In this document: piece after piece, positions 190 to 8,689 of the stretch
How positions within the stretch are numbered: position 1 is the first letter of the stretch
How the letters are laid out: every line of letters begins with the position of its first letter
Origin: a virus
DNA length: 27,028 nucleotides
Reading direction: 5' to 3' (one strand)
IMG/VR virus record: IMGVR_UViG_3300042879_003126
Coordinates: 1-27,028 of that record
The notes under the pieces: generated by a model
What the model saw: only the letters and a program-made list of their open reading frames with translations
Database searches by the model: none
Told to the model about the DNA's origin: nothing
Program-made: the position numbers and the translations under genes

Positions 190-669
190 ATGGGCAAGCG
201 AGGACCAAGACCAACACCCACGGCCATCCTGAAGTTCAGGGGCAGCGAGCTCGTGGCCAAGCGCGGCGAAGAGCCGGCCGGCAGCGACGGTGCTCCCCTG
301 CTGCTTCCGTTCGTGTCGAGCGACGAGCGAGCCCGGTACTACTTCGATCGGCTGATCGAGGACCTGCGTCGCTTGGGCGTGTACGCCGCGGAGGACTACG
401 CGGCTCACAACCTGTACGCGCATCTGATGGCTGAGGGCGAGCGGGCCCACGCATCGGTGCTGGCCGAGGGCATGGTCGTTGAGTGTCGTGGTCAAAAGTG
501 GCAGAATCCGATGAAGAAGGTGCGGGACGACGCCTGGGCTGAGGCGTCGCGTATCGGCAAGGAGTTTGGGCTGACTCCTGCCAGTCGCGTGGGTCTAGTG
601 TCGTCGAGAAAGAACACACAGGGGGATGCCTCGGGCATCGACGCGCTCCTCAAACCCAAGACCGCCTAA
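190..669 (+). CDS. terS: terminase small subunit (P27-like)
   Basis: This is the probable DNA-recognition subunit of the packaging motor, working with the large terminase encoded next. The N-terminus MGKRGPRPTPTAILKFRGS is the typical opening of P27-family small terminases, and the 159-aa length fits. An in-frame ATG lies upstream at 169, but the family-like N-terminus begins at the ATG at 190, which has a purine-rich AGTGAGG stretch upstream, so I chose 190. The 3' end overlaps the large terminase start by 44 nt. HNH endonucleases often lie just upstream of such genes, and here one sits at the opposite end of the window, which hints at a circular map. Identification rests on the N-terminal motif and the neighbour. 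Confidence 0.88.
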   Translation: MGKRGPRPTPTAILKFRGSELVAKRGEEPAGSDGAPLLLPFVSSDERARYYFDRLIEDLRRLGVYAAEDYAAHNLYAHLMAEGERAHASVLAEGMVVECRGQKWQNPMKKVRDDAWAEASRIGKEFGLTPASRVGLVSSRKNTQGDASGIDALLKPKTA

Positions 670-2260
670 GCTCGGCCCCGTCGCCGGCTTCAGTGCATCG
701 GCCACCGCCCGCAAGGGCGACTGGTTTGACGTTGCGGAGTTTGCGCGCCTTGAGACGTTCTTCGGCCTGTTGCGTCACCAGAAGGGCGTGTGGGCTGGCC
801 AGCCGTTCAAGCTGCTGCCGTGGCAGCGTGATCTGCTGGGGTCGCTGCTGTGCTGGAGGCGGGCCGACGGCACCCGACGATTTCGCCAGGCGTATATCGA
901 GATCCCACGGAAGAACGGGAAAAGCACCCTGCTGGCTGCGATCGGGTTGTACATGCTGCTGTGCGATCACGAGCCAGGGGCCGAGGTCTACTGCTGTGCC
1001 AGCGCTCGCGACCAGGCCGCGATCGTTGGCGACGCCTGCCGGCAGATGGTTCAGAGCAACCAGGCACTGGCCAGCCGGGTCGAGGTGTTCCGCAACGTCA
1101 TCACGTTTGGCACGTCGAAGCTTGAGGTGCTCAGCAGCGACGCCGGCACGAAGCACGGCCGCTCGGCAAGCTGCGTGATCTTTGACGAGGTGCACACGTT
1201 CGCCGACCGCGACCTCTACGACGCCATGGTCACAAGCATGGGTGCACGCCGCCAGCCCTTGCAAGTGAGCATCACCACGGCTGGCCACGACCGAAACAGC
1301 CTCTGCTGGGAGCTGCACGACTACGCGGAGAAGGTGCGGGAGGGAATCATCGACGACCACGCTTTCATGCCGGTGGTGTTCAGTGCCCCAAAGGACGCCG
1401 ACTGGAAGAGCCCGAAGACGTGGCGGGCTGCCAACCCCAGCCTTGGCACGACGGTCACCGAAGAGTTCCTGCGGGCCGAGTGCGACAAGGCCAAGGAACT
1501 GCCGACCTACGAGACGACGTTCCGGCAGCTGTACCTGTGCCAGTGGACTGAGGCGAAGACGGTTTGGATCAGCAGCGACGCATGGAAGGCGTGCGCCTCG
1601 AGCGCCGCGGACCCCGACAGCCTTGCTGGCCGCGAGTGCTGGGGCGGGCTGGACCTGAGCACCACCACGGACCTGAGCTCGCTGGCGTTGGTGTTTCCAT
1701 CCGCGGACGGGTCCGTCGATGTTCTGTCCTGGTCGTGGTGCCCCGAGGAGGGCATCCGCCGGCGGAGCCGCAGCGACCGGGCCCCGTACGACGTGTGGGC
1801 GTCACGCGGCGACCTGATCCCGACGCCAGGCACGGTGGTGGACTACGAGTTCATCGCGGCAAAGATCCGGCAGGTGTGCGAGCGCTACTCGGTTCGACAC
1901 ATTGGCTACGACCCGTGGAACGCGACGCAGCTGGCGTCCGGGCTGTTCACAGAGGGCGTCCCCATGCTGGAGGTGCGTCAGGGCTTCCGCACCCTGTCCG
2001 AGCCGTGCAAGCGGTTGGAGGCGTTGGTCGTGAGCCGCAAGATCAGGCACCCCGACAACCAGCTGCTGAACTGGGCCGTGAGCAACACGATCACGGACGC
2101 CGATCCAGCCGGGAATCTCAAGATCTCGAAATCGAGCAGCACGGAGCGCATTGACCCCGTGGCCGCTCTTGTCACCGCCCTTGCCACGTGGTTGCACCAA
2201 CGCGATCAGGGCGGCCCCAGCGTTTACGAAGAACCCGAAAGGACGATCACATGGGTCTGA
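626..2260 (+). CDS. terL: terminase large subunit
   Basis: This is the ATP-driven packaging motor and headful/cos nuclease. The Walker A-like motif PRKNGKST is at residues 94-101 and the Walker B motif VIFDEVH is around 184-190 (D187, E188). The C-terminal RNase H-like nuclease shows GLDLSTTTD (D343), GYDPWN (D429) and a final IDPVAAL (D510), a complete set of acidic residues. The 544-aa length is normal for the HK97/phage_terminase_1 type. The ATG at 626 lies inside the small terminase gene and has AGGGGG immediately before it, which is unusually close, so a slightly different start cannot be excluded. The 3' end overlaps the portal start by 10 nt. The function is secure; the exact N-terminus is less so. 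Confidence 0.95.
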   Translation: MPRASTRSSNPRPPKLGPVAGFSASATARKGDWFDVAEFARLETFFGLLRHQKGVWAGQPFKLLPWQRDLLGSLLCWRRADGTRRFRQAYIEIPRKNGKSTLLAAIGLYMLLCDHEPGAEVYCCASARDQAAIVGDACRQMVQSNQALASRVEVFRNVITFGTSKLEVLSSDAGTKHGRSASCVIFDEVHTFADRDLYDAMVTSMGARRQPLQVSITTAGHDRNSLCWELHDYAEKVREGIIDDHAFMPVVFSAPKDADWKSPKTWRAANPSLGTTVTEEFLRAECDKAKELPTYETTFRQLYLCQWTEAKTVWISSDAWKACASSAADPDSLAGRECWGGLDLSTTTDLSSLALVFPSADGSVDVLSWSWCPEEGIRRRSRSDRAPYDVWASRGDLIPTPGTVVDYEFIAAKIRQVCERYSVRHIGYDPWNATQLASGLFTEGVPMLEVRQGFRTLSEPCKRLEALVVSRKIRHPDNQLLNWAVSNTITDADPAGNLKISKSSSTERIDPVAALVTALATWLHQRDQGGPSVYEEPERTITWV

Positions 2261-4053
2261 CCGACATCCTGCGCCGATACCTCGGCCCCACTCCGCCTCG
2301 TTCCGACTTTGAGGACACCGTCCCCATCGGGCAGGCGACCAGCGGCAGCGTTCAGTCCTACGTTCAGTCGTACTCGTACTCGGGCGAGTCGATCACGCCG
2401 GCACGTGCCCTCGAGGCCCCCAGCGTGTACGCCTGCGTGCGCCTGATTGCCTCGAGCATCAGCCGGCTCGAGTGGCAGGTGCTGCGTGAGTCGCCCGAAG
2501 GCAAGATCGCCGACTCCGCTCACCCGCTCTACAACCTGCTGAACTACGAGGCGTCCGATGACGTGGGCGCCATCCAGCTGCGTGAGAAGCTGCTGACGGA
2601 TTGCCTGCTCACCGGCAACGCATACGCCTACATCCACCGCGATGCTGGCGGTCGTCCGGTGGCCCTTGAGGCGTTGCGACCTGATTACGTCGCCATGTAC
2701 CGCGACGGAGCCAACCAGCCCTACTACCAGGTCTGGACCGGACGCTACAGCGGCAACAACGCCGAGAAGGCCATGCGCCGTTTTAGGGCGTTTGACATGT
2801 TCCACCTGGTCGGTCCAACCACGTTTGACGGCGTGCTCGGCGTGCCACCGATCCACCTGGGTCGCGATGTCATCGCCCTCGAGCTCGAGATCACCGAGTA
2901 CGTGACGCGGTTCATCGCCAACAACGCGGTGCCGGCAGGCACCCTGCAGATGCCTGGTCGCCTCAGCCCCGAAGCGTCAAAGCGTCTGCGCGAGGCGTGG
3001 CAGGCCGCTCATGGCGGCGCCAGCCGAGCCGGCCGCGTGGCGGTGCTTGAGGACGGGCTCAAGTACGAGCCGATCTCCGGCACGTTCAAGGATTCCGAGC
3101 TCATCGAGATGCGGAAGTATTGCCGACAGCAGATTGCTGCGATGTTTCAGGTGCCGGCCCACAAGGTCGGCGACACCGACTCGGGCTCGTACAACAGCAA
3201 CGAGCAGGCGGACTCGGAGTTCGTCAAGCACACGCTGGCGAGCTGGGCCGCTCGTCTTGAGCAGGAAGCCAGCCGCAAACTGGTGATGCGTGGAGAGCCT
3301 TGGTGCACCCGCATCAACTTCAGCGACCTCCTGCGGGCTGACATGACCAGCCGGTTCTCGGCGTATGCCACCGCCATCACCAACGGCATCCTGACCGTCA
3401 ACGAGGCCCGAGCCCTTGAGGGTCGCCCAGCGGTCGATGGCGGCGATCAGATCCGGGTGCCCATGAACACGGAAGCCCCCGGCCAGCAGCCCGCTCAAGG
3501 GCCTAGCGCTCCCGCTGAGGTGCCGGCAGGCAAGGAGCCATCCGTGGACCTTGAGCCCGAGGAAACGCAGCCGGAGGCGCCCACGGTGCCCGACAGCGTG
3601 GACATGGACCCCGACGACGAGGCAAAGCGGTCGGCCGAGGCCATCGGTGCCGCTCAGCGCATGGCTGCCGTGGCTGCGGTCAGGCCTGCTGTGGAGGGCG
3701 CCTTCCGTCGCCATCTGCAGCGAGTCACCGAGTACCTGCAGCGACAGCGCACTCAGGCGAAGCTCGACAAGTGGGCCCCGCCCATCGACTGCCTTGAGGG
3801 CGAGCTGCGGGACACCGTGGCCGGGTTGGGCCGGATCTTTGGCGACCAGGACAAGGCCGAGAAGGCCCTGAGCGATTGCATGCTCCGGCACGCTCGCCAC
3901 CTGCGTGGCAGCGTCGGCAAGATCGCCGAACTGAGCGACGCCATCAGCGGATGGCACACCCTGCCCGGCGCGGCTGCGGCCGAGCTGCTGGACATGGTTC
4001 GCATGGAAATCATCGACACCCCTGTCTTGGAGGACAACAATGCACAAGCCTGA
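2251..4053 (+). CDS. portal protein with long C-terminal extension
   Basis: This HK97-type portal protein forms the dodecameric DNA channel at one capsid vertex. Family-like stretches include PSVYACVRLIASSISRLEW near the N-terminus, ANQPYYQVW in the middle and FQVPAHKVGD followed by YNSNEQ. The frame is open from 2188, but the ATG at 2251 with AAAGGA about 10 nt upstream gives the expected N-terminus MGLTDILRRYLG, for 600 aa. HK97-like portals are usually near 400 aa. The excess is a proline/acid-rich linker after about residue 420 and then a charged, mostly helical domain to the end. That tail could be an internal scaffold-like or minor-head domain, which is inference. The gene overlaps the protease start by 14 nt. 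Confidence 0.93.
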   Translation: MGLTDILRRYLGPTPPRSDFEDTVPIGQATSGSVQSYVQSYSYSGESITPARALEAPSVYACVRLIASSISRLEWQVLRESPEGKIADSAHPLYNLLNYEASDDVGAIQLREKLLTDCLLTGNAYAYIHRDAGGRPVALEALRPDYVAMYRDGANQPYYQVWTGRYSGNNAEKAMRRFRAFDMFHLVGPTTFDGVLGVPPIHLGRDVIALELEITEYVTRFIANNAVPAGTLQMPGRLSPEASKRLREAWQAAHGGASRAGRVAVLEDGLKYEPISGTFKDSELIEMRKYCRQQIAAMFQVPAHKVGDTDSGSYNSNEQADSEFVKHTLASWAARLEQEASRKLVMRGEPWCTRINFSDLLRADMTSRFSAYATAITNGILTVNEARALEGRPAVDGGDQIRVPMNTEAPGQQPAQGPSAPAEVPAGKEPSVDLEPEETQPEAPTVPDSVDMDPDDEAKRSAEAIGAAQRMAAVAAVRPAVEGAFRRHLQRVTEYLQRQRTQAKLDKWAPPIDCLEGELRDTVAGLGRIFGDQDKAEKALSDCMLRHARHLRGSVGKIAELSDAISGWHTLPGAAAAELLDMVRMEIIDTPVLEDNNAQA

Positions 4054-4564
4054 ACGACGCGAAAAGGGCACTTTCTCTGGTGCTGGAGACTTGAAGGTTC
4101 GCGGTTACGCGGCCACTTGGGACACCTACGACATGGGCTCGTTTGAGGAGCGCCTTGACCAAACCGCTTTCAACCGGGCTTTGGAGCAAGCTGACGAGAT
4201 CGCCCTGCTTTGGAATCACGACACCGGCAAGCCGCTGGCCCGCGTCCGTGCCGGCAATCTGCGTCTGTGGTCCGACGACACCGGGCTGGGGTTTGAGGCC
4301 ACCCTTTCCGACACACAGTCTGGACGCGAGGCGTACGAGCTGGTGAAGTCCGGCGTGGTGACCCAGTGCTCCTTCGGTTTTCAGGTGCGCGACGAGGTGT
4401 ACGAGAAGGGTTCGACCAAGCCCCTGCGGATCATCCGAGACGCCGACCTGCTCGAAATTAGCCTTGTGACGTTCCCAGCAAACGGTTCGACCAGCGTCGA
4501 AGCCCGCGAGAAGCCAGCCGAGCCGGCGTCACGTCGCGTGCTCCGGATGTTTCCACCGGCGTGA
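4040..4564 (+). CDS. prohead protease (HK97 gp4-like, U35)
   Basis: This 174-aa serine protease of the HK97 prohead family cleaves scaffold regions during capsid maturation. LLWNHDTGKPLARV supplies the catalytic histidine (H60), TQCSFGFQV the serine (S111), and DADLLEISLVTFPAN the usual acidic site (D136/E139). The size matches stand-alone members of the family. The start overlaps the portal end by 14 nt, consistent with translational coupling. The likely substrate is the second capsid protein (5856-7172), which has a removable N-terminal region; the first capsid protein (4797-5825) lacks one. That assignment of substrate is inference. Confidence 0.93.
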   Translation: MHKPERREKGTFSGAGDLKVRGYAATWDTYDMGSFEERLDQTAFNRALEQADEIALLWNHDTGKPLARVRAGNLRLWSDDTGLGFEATLSDTQSGREAYELVKSGVVTQCSFGFQVRDEVYEKGSTKPLRIIRDADLLEISLVTFPANGSTSVEAREKPAEPASRRVLRMFPPA

Positions 4565-4796
4565 AATGTGAACCGCTATTGACCTGCCTCTTTTGGCAAG
4601 GACAATGGCGGTCGACAACTCATCACCACCGCTCTCAGCGAGCCACCGCCTAGTGCGATTCGACTGACGAGCGAGCGGACCTCCGTGCAGCCCGTGTGGC
4701 GCACTGGCCCGACCAGCGGATGTCAACGACGACGACAACCGCCGGGGCAGTGCGCCATTTTCATGCGCGGTCCCGGCGCTAACCCCGGAGACTGCG
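4565..4796. other. 232-nt gap before the capsid genes
   Basis: This is the longest noncoding gap in the head region. It contains a TTGACC hexamer at about 4578, but no good -10 at 16-18 nt, so I do not call a promoter. The sequence just before 4797 carries CCGGAGA as ribosome binding site for the first capsid gene. The gap itself suggests separate transcriptional or translational control of the two capsid genes. Confidence 0.35.
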
Positions 4797-5825
4797 ATGG
4801 CAGAAACAAAGAACACACTGGACCGTGGCGGCGAGGAATACCGCGGCCTGTTCCAGGACTACTTGCGGCACGGCACTGGCCGACTGACTGACGCCGAGGT
4901 GCGTGCACTCAGCAACAGCGGAACCGGCCTTGGCAATGTTCTTGCCCCGACCGGATGGTCCGACTTCATCGAGCTCTCGATGCGGCAGGACACGATTCTG
5001 AGCAAGGTTCGGAAGGTCACCACCGCCGGCAAGTTCACGCAGCCCATCAACGTGGCCGACGCGACGGTCAACAGCAACCAGTCCGAGACCAACATCGGAA
5101 CGGAGAGCTGGACAGCCGGCACCGCTCTTGCCCTGCCCCAGCAGGGATCTGGCGGAAGCACCACTTACACCTTCAGCCTGAAAAAGGTCACTGCGTGGAC
5201 CAAGGTCAGCAACGAGATCTTGGAAGATTCAACCGCGGCTACCAGCATCGAGGAGTTTGTGCGGGCCGAACTGGTTGCCGAACTGATCACGCAGCTCAAC
5301 TCGCAGATCCTGATTGGTGACGGCAGCACTGGATGCCAAGGAGCGTTCAACTCGGCCAAGGCGTACAGCCGAACGGCGAGCACGGGTGTTTCGACCAGCA
5401 ACAAGGCCAGCGACATTCTTGCCGCCGCCTGGGGCTCCAGCAACTCGGCGCTGTCTCCCATGGCGTTTGAGTCATGGAAGAACAGCGTCGCGGTCATCAA
5501 CAGTCGTCTGACGGGTTCCTTTGACTCGACGTTCTTCCCGCCCCTGTTCCCGCTGTTCGTCGGAAACATGCAGGATGGAACGTCGGTCGAGGGATTGCCG
5601 ACCGTCTATCACCGATTGAGCGCCACCACGCCGGCTGCCGGCGACACCCTGGTGATGTTCTTCGACCCCACCAAGTACCTGCTGGCTACCTCGTTCCGCG
5701 GATTCAGCGTGACCCGTCTGAGCGAGACCTACAGCGGGACGGACCAAACGGCATTCGTCGCATCTGTGCGTGCGGACGGTTGCCTGCTTCACACCTCTGG
5801 CGTGCTCAACGTGAACCGCGCCTGA
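4797..5825 (+). CDS. major capsid protein 1 (HK97 fold, no delta domain)
   Basis: This 342-aa protein is related to HK97 capsid proteins. It begins directly with the N-arm: RALSNSGTGLGNVLAPT at residues 36-52, followed by a long beta-rich region, the FSLKKVTAWTKVSNEILEDS helix region, an ILIGDGST motif and the A-domain with FFDPTKYLLATSFRGF. It aligns by eye with the next gene product over RALSxxGTGLG, LKK..AW.KVSxEILED and the IGDGSTG/LNGTGASG motif, so the two are paralogues. It lacks the roughly 90-residue N-terminal scaffold region of the other. GGAGA about 6 nt upstream supports the ATG. It may be the main shell protein, a vertex (pentamer) protein, or an alternative shell protein; sequence alone does not decide. 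Confidence 0.85.
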   Translation: MAETKNTLDRGGEEYRGLFQDYLRHGTGRLTDAEVRALSNSGTGLGNVLAPTGWSDFIELSMRQDTILSKVRKVTTAGKFTQPINVADATVNSNQSETNIGTESWTAGTALALPQQGSGGSTTYTFSLKKVTAWTKVSNEILEDSTAATSIEEFVRAELVAELITQLNSQILIGDGSTGCQGAFNSAKAYSRTASTGVSTSNKASDILAAAWGSSNSALSPMAFESWKNSVAVINSRLTGSFDSTFFPPLFPLFVGNMQDGTSVEGLPTVYHRLSATTPAAGDTLVMFFDPTKYLLATSFRGFSVTRLSETYSGTDQTAFVASVRADGCLLHTSGVLNVNRA

Positions 5826-5855
5826 TCGCACGCACAAACAGGAAAGGACTGGAAC

Positions 5856-7172
5856 ATGACCGAAACGTACCGCGGGCTCGTCGAAAAGATGGGAGCCCTC
5901 TACCGAGACATGCAGGCCCTGATCGACGCGGCCAACAAGAACGGCGGCGACATGAGCGCCGATGACACCAAGCGCTTCGACGCCATGCAGGCCGAGTACC
6001 GCAAGCTGCAGGAGCAGCGCGAGCGGAACGTCGCCCTGATGGGTCTGGCGGCCAAGGACAAGCAGATTGGCAGCGAGTTTGTCGACGTCGGCCCCGACGC
6101 TCCCGAGATGCGGCGCGCTCCCGCTGCCCGCGAGACCGCCCAGCGGGCCCCCCGCTTCGGCGACTTCCGCTGCAGCGACGAGTTCAGCAAGGCCTATGAG
6201 GTCTATCTGAAGCGCGGCGAGCACACCCCCGTGTCCGAGATGCGGGCCCTCAGCGAGGGCGGCACCGGCCTCGGCGACATCATTCCGCCGACCGAGTTCC
6301 ACAGCCGCATGGCCGAGCAGCTGCAGAAGATGGTTGTCCTGCGCAAGCTGGCAACCGTGATGCCGCTGGGCTCGTGGAAGCGAGACATCGCCATCGAGAG
6401 CGCCCTGGCCAGCGTGAACTGGACCACGGAAGGCTCGTCGATCACCGATTCGCTGCAGACCAACCCGACCTACAGCAACGTCGTCCTGCAGCCCAAGAAG
6501 CTCGCCGGCCTTGCCAAGGTGAGCCGCGAGCTGCTCGACGATGCTCCGGCTCGTGGTGCTGGGTTCTCCATCGAGACCATCATCACCAACAGCTTTGCCA
6601 AGTCTTTCGCTCAGACCGAGGAAGACGGCATGCTCAACGGCACCGGCGCGTCCGGACAGCCGACGGGCGTCCTGACCATCGCGGCCAGCGGCCCTTCGGT
6701 CGGCAAGCAGCTGGCGTCCAACAGCGCCATCACTGCTGTCGAGGTCATCGACTGGGTCTACAGCCTGGGCCGCGAGTATCGCTCGCACCCCAGCGCGGCG
6801 ATCCTGCTTTCGGACACCGCCCTTGGCTATGTCCGCAAGGCTGCAGCCGCAACCGGCACGCTGAACTACTTCTGGCAGCCCAGCGGCGTGCTCGGAGAGC
6901 CGGATCGGATCATGGGGATTCCGGTCTACGCGAGCCAGTACGTCCCGGCTCCGGCGACCAGCAGCCAAGGCTTTGCCTCGGGCGGCGGAATCTGCGGCAT
7001 GATCGGCGCCTTTGACTACTGCGTCATCGGCGAGCGCTCGGGCTACACGCTTCGCGTGCTGAACGAGCTCTACGCGGCGAACGATCAGGTGGGCTACGTG
7101 GCCACCAATCGCGTGGATGTGAAGCTGACCAACATGTCGGCCTTCAAGTACCTCCGCGGCGCCGCCAGCTGA
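5856..7172 (+). CDS. major capsid protein 2 (HK97 fold with delta domain)
   Basis: This 438-aa HK97-family capsid protein has the classical layout. A charged coiled-coil delta region spans roughly residues 1-75, a linker to about 125 follows, and then the mature-like N-arm with EMRALSEGGTGLGDIIPPT from residue 128. Downstream are VNWTTEGSSI (E-loop region), LQPKKLAGLAKVSRELLDD, GMLNGTGASGQPTGVL, and IMGIPVYASQYVP with a C-terminal DQVGYVATNRVDVKLTN, all typical. The start has a strong AGGAAAGGA upstream. The prohead protease should remove the N-terminal part before the RALS segment, by analogy with HK97. The gene follows its paralogue after 30 nt, so both are probably on one message. A perfect hairpin follows the stop. 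Confidence 0.95.
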   Translation: MTETYRGLVEKMGALYRDMQALIDAANKNGGDMSADDTKRFDAMQAEYRKLQEQRERNVALMGLAAKDKQIGSEFVDVGPDAPEMRRAPAARETAQRAPRFGDFRCSDEFSKAYEVYLKRGEHTPVSEMRALSEGGTGLGDIIPPTEFHSRMAEQLQKMVVLRKLATVMPLGSWKRDIAIESALASVNWTTEGSSITDSLQTNPTYSNVVLQPKKLAGLAKVSRELLDDAPARGAGFSIETIITNSFAKSFAQTEEDGMLNGTGASGQPTGVLTIAASGPSVGKQLASNSAITAVEVIDWVYSLGREYRSHPSAAILLSDTALGYVRKAAAATGTLNYFWQPSGVLGEPDRIMGIPVYASQYVPAPATSSQGFASGGGICGMIGAFDYCVIGERSGYTLRVLNELYAANDQVGYVATNRVDVKLTNMSAFKYLRGAAS

Positions 7173-7193
7173 TCGGGTTACTGAGTGATTCAA

Positions 7194-7221
7194 CCCTTGG
7201 GGAGGGAAACCTCCCCAAGGG
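7194..7221 (+). promoter_or_regulatory. perfect 12-bp hairpin with GAAA loop after capsid gene 2
   Basis: CCCTTGGGGAGG and CCTCCCCAAGGG pair perfectly around a GAAA tetraloop. No T-run follows (ATTTCG only), so as a factor-independent terminator it would be weak. It could act as partial terminator, RNase-stop or processing site that keeps capsid mRNA abundant relative to downstream genes. The location just after the most highly needed protein favours a role in setting stoichiometry. Confidence 0.75.
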
Positions 7222-7235
7222 ATTTCGAGGATGCG

Positions 7236-7436
7236 ATGAAGGTCAAGATGCTCACCAGCGTCGGAACGGCTGACGAGGGCTACGGCGAAGGTCAGGTCTA
7301 CGACCTTCCCGAGCCGCGTGCTCTTGAGTTTTTGTCCCTTGGATGGGCGGAGCAGGCCGAGTTCCACGCCGACCATCCGGAAGCGTGCGTGAAGCCGCAG
7401 TGCTGCAAGGCGACTAGGAAGGCGGCCAGGCGATGA
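7236..7436 (+). CDS. small head-region protein
   Basis: This 66-aa protein begins MKVKMLTSVGTADEGYGEGQVYDLPE. It resembles a widespread class of small proteins next to phage capsid genes whose N-terminus reads like MKVxxLTSxxG...GDVxDLP. The frame is open from 7185, but that start lies in the hairpin; the ATG at 7236 has GAGG 5 nt upstream. The C-terminus is basic and contains two cysteines in QCCK. Its function is not known to me; related proteins are usually annotated as hypothetical. It overlaps the next gene by ATGA. Confidence 0.75.
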   Translation: MKVKMLTSVGTADEGYGEGQVYDLPEPRALEFLSLGWAEQAEFHADHPEACVKPQCCKATRKAARR

Positions 7437-8689
7437 GGGGCAACGCGTTTGTACCGTTTATGCTCAAGCGCGGCGACGGCTCCACGCTCTCGCTGGACTT
7501 CGCGAGCATGGGCGAGCTTGATAGCCGATTCACCTTTACGCGGAATTCGATTGCTACCTATACGAACTCCAGCGGGATTGTGACTAGCGTCACGGCTGCC
7601 GCTACAAACGATCCGTCAAAGGCCAGGTTTGACTACAACCCAACCACGCTCGCGCGTCGCGGTTTGCTGATTGAGGGCAGCGCAACGAACATTTGCACAA
7701 GGTCGGAAGACCTCGCAAATGCCGTCTGGGTGCCGGACAACGGATCGGCTACGAATCCAAATGTGGAGGCAGTGTCACAGGCCGCACCGAACGGCGGGGC
7801 ATCCGTCAACCGAATCACATTCAACAAGACCGGCGGCACTTTCTCACGAATCCGGCAAACGCTCGTCGGTACGAGTGGAGCCACCTACACCCTTTCCGTG
7901 TGGATGAAAGCCAACACGGCAAACGGTGCGGCCGCAACTCAAAATGTGGGCCTGCGAATCGGTGCGGATACCGGCGGGTTCAATTGTGCGGTGACCACCA
8001 CATGGACGCGCTTTTCGTATTCCTATGCGCTATCCGGCACGGACGCATCGGCTCAGATCATGCTGTGGGACAATATTGCCGGAAACGATGAAACAGCGGA
8101 TGTCCTGGTGTGGGGCGCACAACTGGAGGCAGGATCTTACGCATCCTCGTACATCCCGACAGGCGCAAGCACCGCGCAGCGGGCGGCGGAACTATGCCAG
8201 ATGAGCGGAACCAACTTCTCGTCATGGTTTCAGGCAGGCAGCGCGTATTCCATGCTGTATCGCTACTCGCTCAATTCACCCACAGCATTTGCAGGCACGA
8301 ACATAGATCGTGCGTGCGGGCAAATGTCCGTAAGCGGCTCGGGGAATCGCACATTCATCAACGCTGCGTACAGAGTTGCAAGCGGTTCAGGAGACATAGG
8401 GCGATTCGTGCGCGTTTTCGACACCGGCTCGCTCGACATGCAACCAGCAACCCTACCGGCTGCCGCAACAAATACGGCTCTGGCGTTTGCGGTGAACACG
8501 AACGATGCGGCGATCTACGGAACGAACGGAGTGGTGGGGACGGATAGCAGTTGCACGATCTTGACTGGGCAAAACCTGCTCGACATCGGGTCGATTGGAT
8601 CATCCCAGCATCTGAACGGCTGTATTTCGCTCATCAAATACTGGCCTACCCGCCTGCCCAACGCCACCCTTCAGAGCCTCACAGCATGA
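7433..8689 (+). CDS. head spike/fibre-like adhesin
   Basis: This 418-aa beta-rich protein resembles phage head spike fibre-domain proteins. The N-terminal part carries FTFTRNSIATYTNSSG and RRGLLIEGSATN, a typical opening for this class. The centre (about residues 110-235) reads like a carbohydrate-binding beta-sandwich: TYTLSVWMKAN, TWTRFSYSYAL, VWGAQLEAGSYASSYIPT. The end, LNGCISLIKYWPTRLPNATLQSL, is the usual closing LamG-like strand. The likely role is glycan or host-surface binding from the capsid. The gene is visibly less GC-rich and uses more A/T-ending codons than its neighbours, suggesting recent exchange of a receptor-binding module. It overlaps both neighbours by 4 nt. Confidence 0.78.
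   Translation: MRGNAFVPFMLKRGDGSTLSLDFASMGELDSRFTFTRNSIATYTNSSGIVTSVTAAATNDPSKARFDYNPTTLARRGLLIEGSATNICTRSEDLANAVWVPDNGSATNPNVEAVSQAAPNGGASVNRITFNKTGGTFSRIRQTLVGTSGATYTLSVWMKANTANGAAATQNVGLRIGADTGGFNCAVTTTWTRFSYSYALSGTDASAQIMLWDNIAGNDETADVLVWGAQLEAGSYASSYIPTGASTAQRAAELCQMSGTNFSSWFQAGSAYSMLYRYSLNSPTAFAGTNIDRACGQMSVSGSGNRTFINAAYRVASGSGDIGRFVRVFDTGSLDMQPATLPAAATNTALAFAVNTNDAAIYGTNGVVGTDSSCTILTGQNLLDIGSIGSSQHLNGCISLIKYWPTRLPNATLQSLTA

Follow-up and report, generated by a model that had tools for sequence, protein, structure and literature searches.

Tandem HK97-type capsid genes in a lineage of small, probably temperate phages: a possible two-protein shell

The window analysed here is the whole of a 27,028-base IMG/VR virus record (IMGVR_UViG_3300042879_003126, positions 1 to 27,028). 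Its head genes stand in the order terS, terL, portal, S78 protease, cap1 and cap2, the last two being adjacent HK97-type capsid genes preceded by a promoter and an RNA leader. The features discussed below are as follows.

169-669, terS
626-2260, plus strand, terL, terminase large subunit (TerL_ATPase and TerL_nuclease)
2188-4053, plus strand, portal protein (PF04860, E 1e-95)
4040-4564, plus strand, prohead serine protease, Peptidase_S78 (PF04586, E 4e-42)
4579-4606, plus strand, sigma70-like promoter TTGACC-16-GACAAT before cap1 (found by pattern; 2 sites in 4000-7500 against 0.3 expected)
4630-4762, plus strand, conserved structured RNA leader with a terminator-like hairpin at 4698-4757 followed by ATTTT (z -7.1 against shuffles, covarying pairs in the terminator-like stem)
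4797-5825, plus strand, cap1, HK97-type capsid paralogue without a coiled-coil delta domain, 342 aa, proposed penton protein (PF05065, TIGR01554, RcGTA chain 6tba)
4797-4904, plus strand, cap1 residues 1-36, short pro-segment ending at a putative cleavage site between R36 and A37 (E-V-R-A-L-S, motif at residues 34-39)
5313-5600, plus strand, cap1 residues ~173-268, A (axial) domain, with approximate boundaries taken from alignment; in some cap1 types this part is swapped among close relatives
5856-7172, plus strand, cap2, canonical HK97-type major capsid protein with an N-terminal delta domain, 438 aa, proposed hexon protein (PF05065, TIGR01554, RcGTA Rcc01687)
5856-6245, plus strand, cap2 residues 1-130, delta/pro region with a helical part at residues 5-72 and, at its end, a putative cleavage site between R130 and A131 (E-M-R-A-L-S, cut after R)

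Downstream of the capsid pair are genes for a head-tail adaptor, head closure, tail tube and tail chaperone, together with a candidate tape measure protein of 393 aa that gave a weak match (E 4e-4), and beyond the tail genes lie an integrase and then recombination and replication genes. Given these tail genes and the integrase, recombination and replication genes, the window phage is probably a temperate siphovirus. The gene at 7433-8689 (PHROG tail protein, with a weak carbohydrate-binding match), which follows the capsid pair and the small gene next to that pair, varies among relatives, and the relatives L049 and L017 differ by ~1.6 kb of DNA between the small gene (7185-7436 in the window) and the head-tail adaptor gene. 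An open frame of 634 codons on the minus strand (5472-7376) spans the 3′ third of cap1 and the entire cap2 in antisense, and probably arises from codon usage at high G+C.

Both capsid reading frames are intact, with stops at 5825 (cap1) and 7172 (cap2). Their products are 23% identical in an alignment covering almost the whole of cap1 (E 3e-13), and the profiles of the two families matched each other by hhalign with a probability of 99.9% (E 8e-33). PF05065 was matched by cap1 with 74.9 bits (E 9e-21) and by cap2 with 151.8 bits (E 3e-44), at a curated cut-off of 24.2, and TIGR01554 (HK97 major capsid protein) with 78.5 bits (5e-22) and 226.3 bits (7e-67), respectively, at a cut-off of 27.5; the remaining cap1 types likewise lie above the curated HK97-type profile cut-off. 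Since curated profiles, pairwise alignment and hhalign all join the two proteins, their likeness is homology and not chance. This bears out the first-pass annotation, which had called the products paralogues from motifs that are indeed present in cap1 and cap2 (RALSNSGTGLG and RALSEGGTGLG; KKVTAWTKVSNEILEDS and KKLAGLAKVSRELLDDA; IGDGSTG and LNGTGASG). The closest solved structure by sequence to both families is the RcGTA capsid Rcc01687 (6tb9, 6tba), which was matched by the cap2 profile with E 3e-50, by the cap1 profile with E 2e-9 (chain 6tba), and by the cap2 sequence with E 6e-24. AlphaFold2 models of cap1 and cap2, made from a shallow alignment of 22 close sequences, reached pLDDT values of 31.5 and 42.5; on their sequence profiles, both proteins are of the HK97 type.

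The N-terminal delta domain, fused to the capsid protein, is present in cap2 and absent in cap1. A coiled-coil delta region had been assigned to the second gene alone, and the profile alignments agree, with TIGR01554 aligned from position 7 in cap2 and from position 79 of 385 in cap1; residues 10-60 are also the main part of the cap2 AlphaFold2 model above pLDDT 70. Such a delta domain is not found in every HK97-fold capsid protein, and its absence in cap1 does not exclude the fold. The further statement that cap1 begins directly at a mature-like N-arm has to be corrected, as ~36 residues of the protein precede the site equivalent to the HK97 cut. In the alignment with mature HK97 (chain 1ohg, 282 of 385 residues), A131 of cap2 falls on the first residue of that chain, and the E-x-R-A-L site of cap1 aligns with that of cap2, hence with the bond cleaved in HK97. 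Among 36 diverse phages for each protein, the residues before the site number 121-130 in all 36 cap2 and 31-42 in 35 of the 36 cap1, the exception being L060 with 3, and the site motif is kept in all cap2 and, as E-x-R-A/T/V-L/I, in 34 cap1. Judged from these alignments, cap1 has lost the coiled-coil part and kept the site. Because it retains a short pro-segment with the same putative site as cap2, both proteins are probably cleaved, to predicted mature sizes of 306 aa (cap1) and 308 aa (cap2). The first-pass annotation had a prohead protease removing the delta region of the second protein; the S78 protease gene just upstream speaks for such a cut, and the picture of processing as a matter for cap2 alone gives way to the short pro-segment and same putative site of cap1.

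Relatives were gathered from IMG/VR with cap1, with cap2 and with alignments, and a contig was counted if its cap2-clade gene had more than 1 kb of upstream sequence, loci on the same contig being removed by hand. The search for phages with the same paired arrangement, recommended in the first reading of this DNA, found the pair to be universal in the clade: cap1 lies directly upstream of the cap2-clade gene in 75 of 75 distinct contigs, a number that includes near-copies from related samples and does not stand for 75 independent events. Among contigs carrying the nearest other capsid genes, cap1 precedes the capsid gene in 0 of 69, of which 9 are GenBank phages. A score gap separates the two sets, with cap2-clade genes at 426 or more and the other capsid genes at 297 or less. 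The pairs include very distant ones, such as L060, L099 and L112-L116, whose cap1 is barely recognisable by pairwise search; the cap1 of L060 and L099 is still above the PF05065 cut-off. The longest contigs measure 24-28 kb for phages of the window's kind and 34-40 kb for the most distant kind. On one contig of 40,086 bases (IMGVR_UViG_3300035703_000188, L198 and L199) the cap1 match is divided between both contig ends, a sign that this may be a whole genome, circular or permuted, of the distant type with the pair. In L060, the 3′ third of cap2 and the DNA following it (4413-5139) are 96% identical to L028 and the rest is very distant, a patch due to recombination or chimeric assembly.

Two scans of GTDB genomes gave no prophage with cap1, and plasmids gave no match. 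A cap1 search of INPHARED returned only 14 weak matches of 24-27% identity, all gut-phage records whose capsid genes were matched by cap2 too, and the L099-type cap1 had no match in INPHARED. In a tree of 36 cap1, 36 cap2 and 9 single-gene capsid proteins, a branch sets each group apart from the others (support 97, 96 and 87). With one clade for cap1 and one for cap2, a single origin of the pair before the lineage diversified is probable; this tree is unrooted, and the origin of cap1 could be a duplication or an older capsid gene. Most single-gene capsids score ~260 against the profile of cap2 and ~75 against that of cap1, so that cap2 is closer to them. Values of dN/dS were 0.09-0.22 for cap1 and 0.12-0.26 for cap2, indicating purifying selection on both.

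In the gap between the protease gene and cap1, many relatives carry a promoter of the TTGC-17-GATAAT type, and the promoter is among the best-conserved parts of the aligned gap. Its DNA pattern alone matched 38 contigs, and the next gene was cap1, in several forms, in all 36 that had enough downstream sequence. With a covariance model, the RNA leader was located between the protease gene and cap1 in relatives of 24-28 kb, the match being strong for close relatives and weak for distant ones (E up to 0.02); the most distant pairs, with a gap of -4 to 33 bases, gave no match. No Rfam family matches the leader, which in the window lies in the gap 4565-4796 and is possibly an attenuator or a small RNA controlling the capsid operon. 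cap1 and cap2 are 30 bp apart behind this same leader, and a second promoter was not found between them.

Comparison of close relatives leads to one robust statement, namely that cap1 and cap2 vary independently. Between L055 and L056 the flanking DNA is 84-92% identical and cap2 97% identical, against 29% for cap1, the DNA match ending 16 codons into cap1 and returning at its end. Likewise, L049 and L017 have flanks of 92-93%, a cap1 of 34% and a cap2 of 79% identity. The DNA of L049 and L050 is 91-94% identical save for cap1 residues ~217-327, and by segment their cap2 is 99-100% identical throughout and the A region of cap1 37%; the DNA match of L056 and L057 breaks off at a similar cap1 position. 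No pair was found to combine a cap1 identity of at least 80% with a cap2 identity of at most 65%. The asymmetry is not uniform, since the A region of cap2 is the more variable in L076/L079 and L004/L031. From the window to L003, cap1 is 91% identical as against 82% for cap2, and to L006 the values are 52% and 41%. Correlations of distances, which are descriptive and of which the cap1-to-cap2 value is lowered by exchange alone, were 0.73-0.76 within cap1, 0.50-0.77 within cap2 and 0.21-0.48 between the two. The E-loop has 56-60 residues in every cap2 and 62-142 in cap1, and large insertions in it occur in cap1 only: one clade has two GSGYTSAPTV-type repeats, and L060 has an insert unrelated to them. 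The repeat-bearing insertion is ~75 residues long (L004:4688-5935, L026:4629-5876, L031:2601-3851, L038:1702-2946), and Pfam had no match for it.

The A domains of HK97-type shells come together at the axis of each capsomer, and the A-A contacts are made within a capsomer. Mixed capsomers should therefore tolerate exchange of an A domain poorly, and the independent A domains of cap1 and cap2 favour separate capsomers. With separate capsomers, and with cap2 as the canonical lattice protein, the vertices are left for cap1. On balance we lean, with modest confidence, towards a two-protein HK97-type shell in which cap1 makes separate capsomers, most likely pentons, cap2 makes the hexons, and the S78 protease cleaves both. 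cap2, with its own delta scaffold domain, would build the hexon lattice; cap1, without a coiled-coil delta, would form its own capsomers, most likely pentons at the eleven non-portal vertices; and the protease would cut both at the equivalent E-x-R-A-L site, between R and A, leaving mature proteins of ~306 and ~308 residues. We infer co-assembly in one shell, cleavage of both proteins and placement of cap1 at the pentons. Against this reading count the pairs L076/L079 and L004/L031, in which the A region of cap2 varies more than that of cap1, and the position of cap1 upstream of cap2 in a shared putative transcript, which would not of itself give a low cap1 copy number. A more tentative extension, about which we are somewhat doubtful, is that in this widespread, uncultured lineage cap1 pentons may be swapped between phages as a cassette, or mainly as the axial domain, over a constant hexon lattice, so that vertex surfaces would diversify independently.

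Similar predicted mature sizes (306 and 308), one putative transcript and universal pairing would equally suit an arrangement in which cap1 and cap2 share capsomers, as hetero-hexamers or in an alternating lattice, and no hexon/penton division exists. We think this unlikely, because cap1, wholly or chiefly in its A region, has been substituted in pairs whose cap2 is still 97-99% identical, and because the distances of the two proteins correlate less with each other (0.21-0.48) than within each (0.50-0.77). It seems more improbable still that cap1 belongs to heads of another size or to another class of particle, or that it modulates the size of the head, and is not in every shell; the promoter and RNA leader before cap1 could regulate the pair apart from the other head genes, yet they lie before both genes, which are 30 bp apart with no second promoter between them. 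Slightly lower we place the idea that cap1, instead of being a shell subunit, is an assembly factor, decoy or head-surface protein built on the HK97 fold. It diversifies fast, is exchanged as a cassette and has two unrelated E-loop insertions, traits reminiscent of surface or decoration proteins, but cap1 matches the capsid family over almost its entire length and shares the putative protease site.

A reversal of roles, with cap1 as the hexon or majority protein and cap2 as a specialised vertex protein, we find a shade less credible again: cap1 is the better conserved in several lineages, as the window's comparisons with L003 (91% against 82%) and L006 (52% against 41%) illustrate, whereas cap2 is nearer the single-gene capsids and alone has the delta domain needed for HK97-type assembly. 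Finally, adjacent and homologous genes could reflect a recent redundant duplication or a decaying, functionless copy. This explanation, to which we give almost no credence, was rejected on account of the presence of the pair in every relative, the strong purifying selection, the old split of the families and the lack of any loss in 75 contigs.

The nearest parallel is phage T4, whose penton protein gp24 loses 10 residues and whose hexon protein gp23 loses 65, the two being ~20% identical (PMC9958956). As in the T4-like two-protein shell, two HK97-type paralogues are encoded by one phage; in T4 the penton protein has much the shorter propeptide, and here the putative pro-segments are 36 residues in cap1 and 130 in cap2, with the two proteins 23% identical. 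The putative site motif and its spacing in the two proteins fit the T4 pattern, the shorter peptide being on the proposed penton protein. The pair may work like gp23 and gp24, yet we do not assign it to the T4 family, since T4 capsid chains are absent from the matches of the cap1 profile (E up to 1) and of the cap2 profile (E up to 0.01). T4 also differs in that its genome is far larger and its scaffold forms a core of its own, whereas the window phage has 27 kb and carries its scaffold fused to cap2. Some siphovirus actinophages have been annotated with hexamer and pentamer capsid genes, by annotation rather than structure (PMC10893344, PMC9413003). Their likeness to the present phages, two capsid genes, is drawn from published annotation, and they limit any claim of uniqueness to T4 and the present lineage. 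A literature search for small phages with HK97 capsid genes in tandem yielded nothing beyond T4 and these annotation-only actinophages.

Among systems with one capsid gene, RcGTA differs in that a single protein makes both pentamers and hexamers; the head spikes of this particle attach to the pentamers at their axial domains (PMC7296036). Streptococcus phage Javan630, Acutalibacteraceae phage NatCom_11578 and Salmonella phage ST64B share with the window the order terL, portal, protease and major capsid gene, and a cap2-like capsid; unlike the window lineage, such single-capsid phages lack a cap1 in the interval from the protease gene to the capsid gene (present in 0 of 69 contigs). The first-pass annotation had considered two capsid genes unusual for so small a phage, and at 27 kb this judgement stands beside a review in which one-gene capsids are explained by genome economy and T4 is the rare two-gene case, affordable with a large genome (PMC13185644). 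A lineage mostly of 24-28 kb that never loses the second capsid gene contradicts that reasoning. If our reading is true, a division of labour between hexon and penton proteins, usually associated with far larger viruses like T4, would exist in a small uncultured temperate group, where several cap1 types behind a near-identical cap2 offer natural variation for testing hexon-penton recognition, and where the pair bears also on shell assembly when one of two proteins carries the scaffold.
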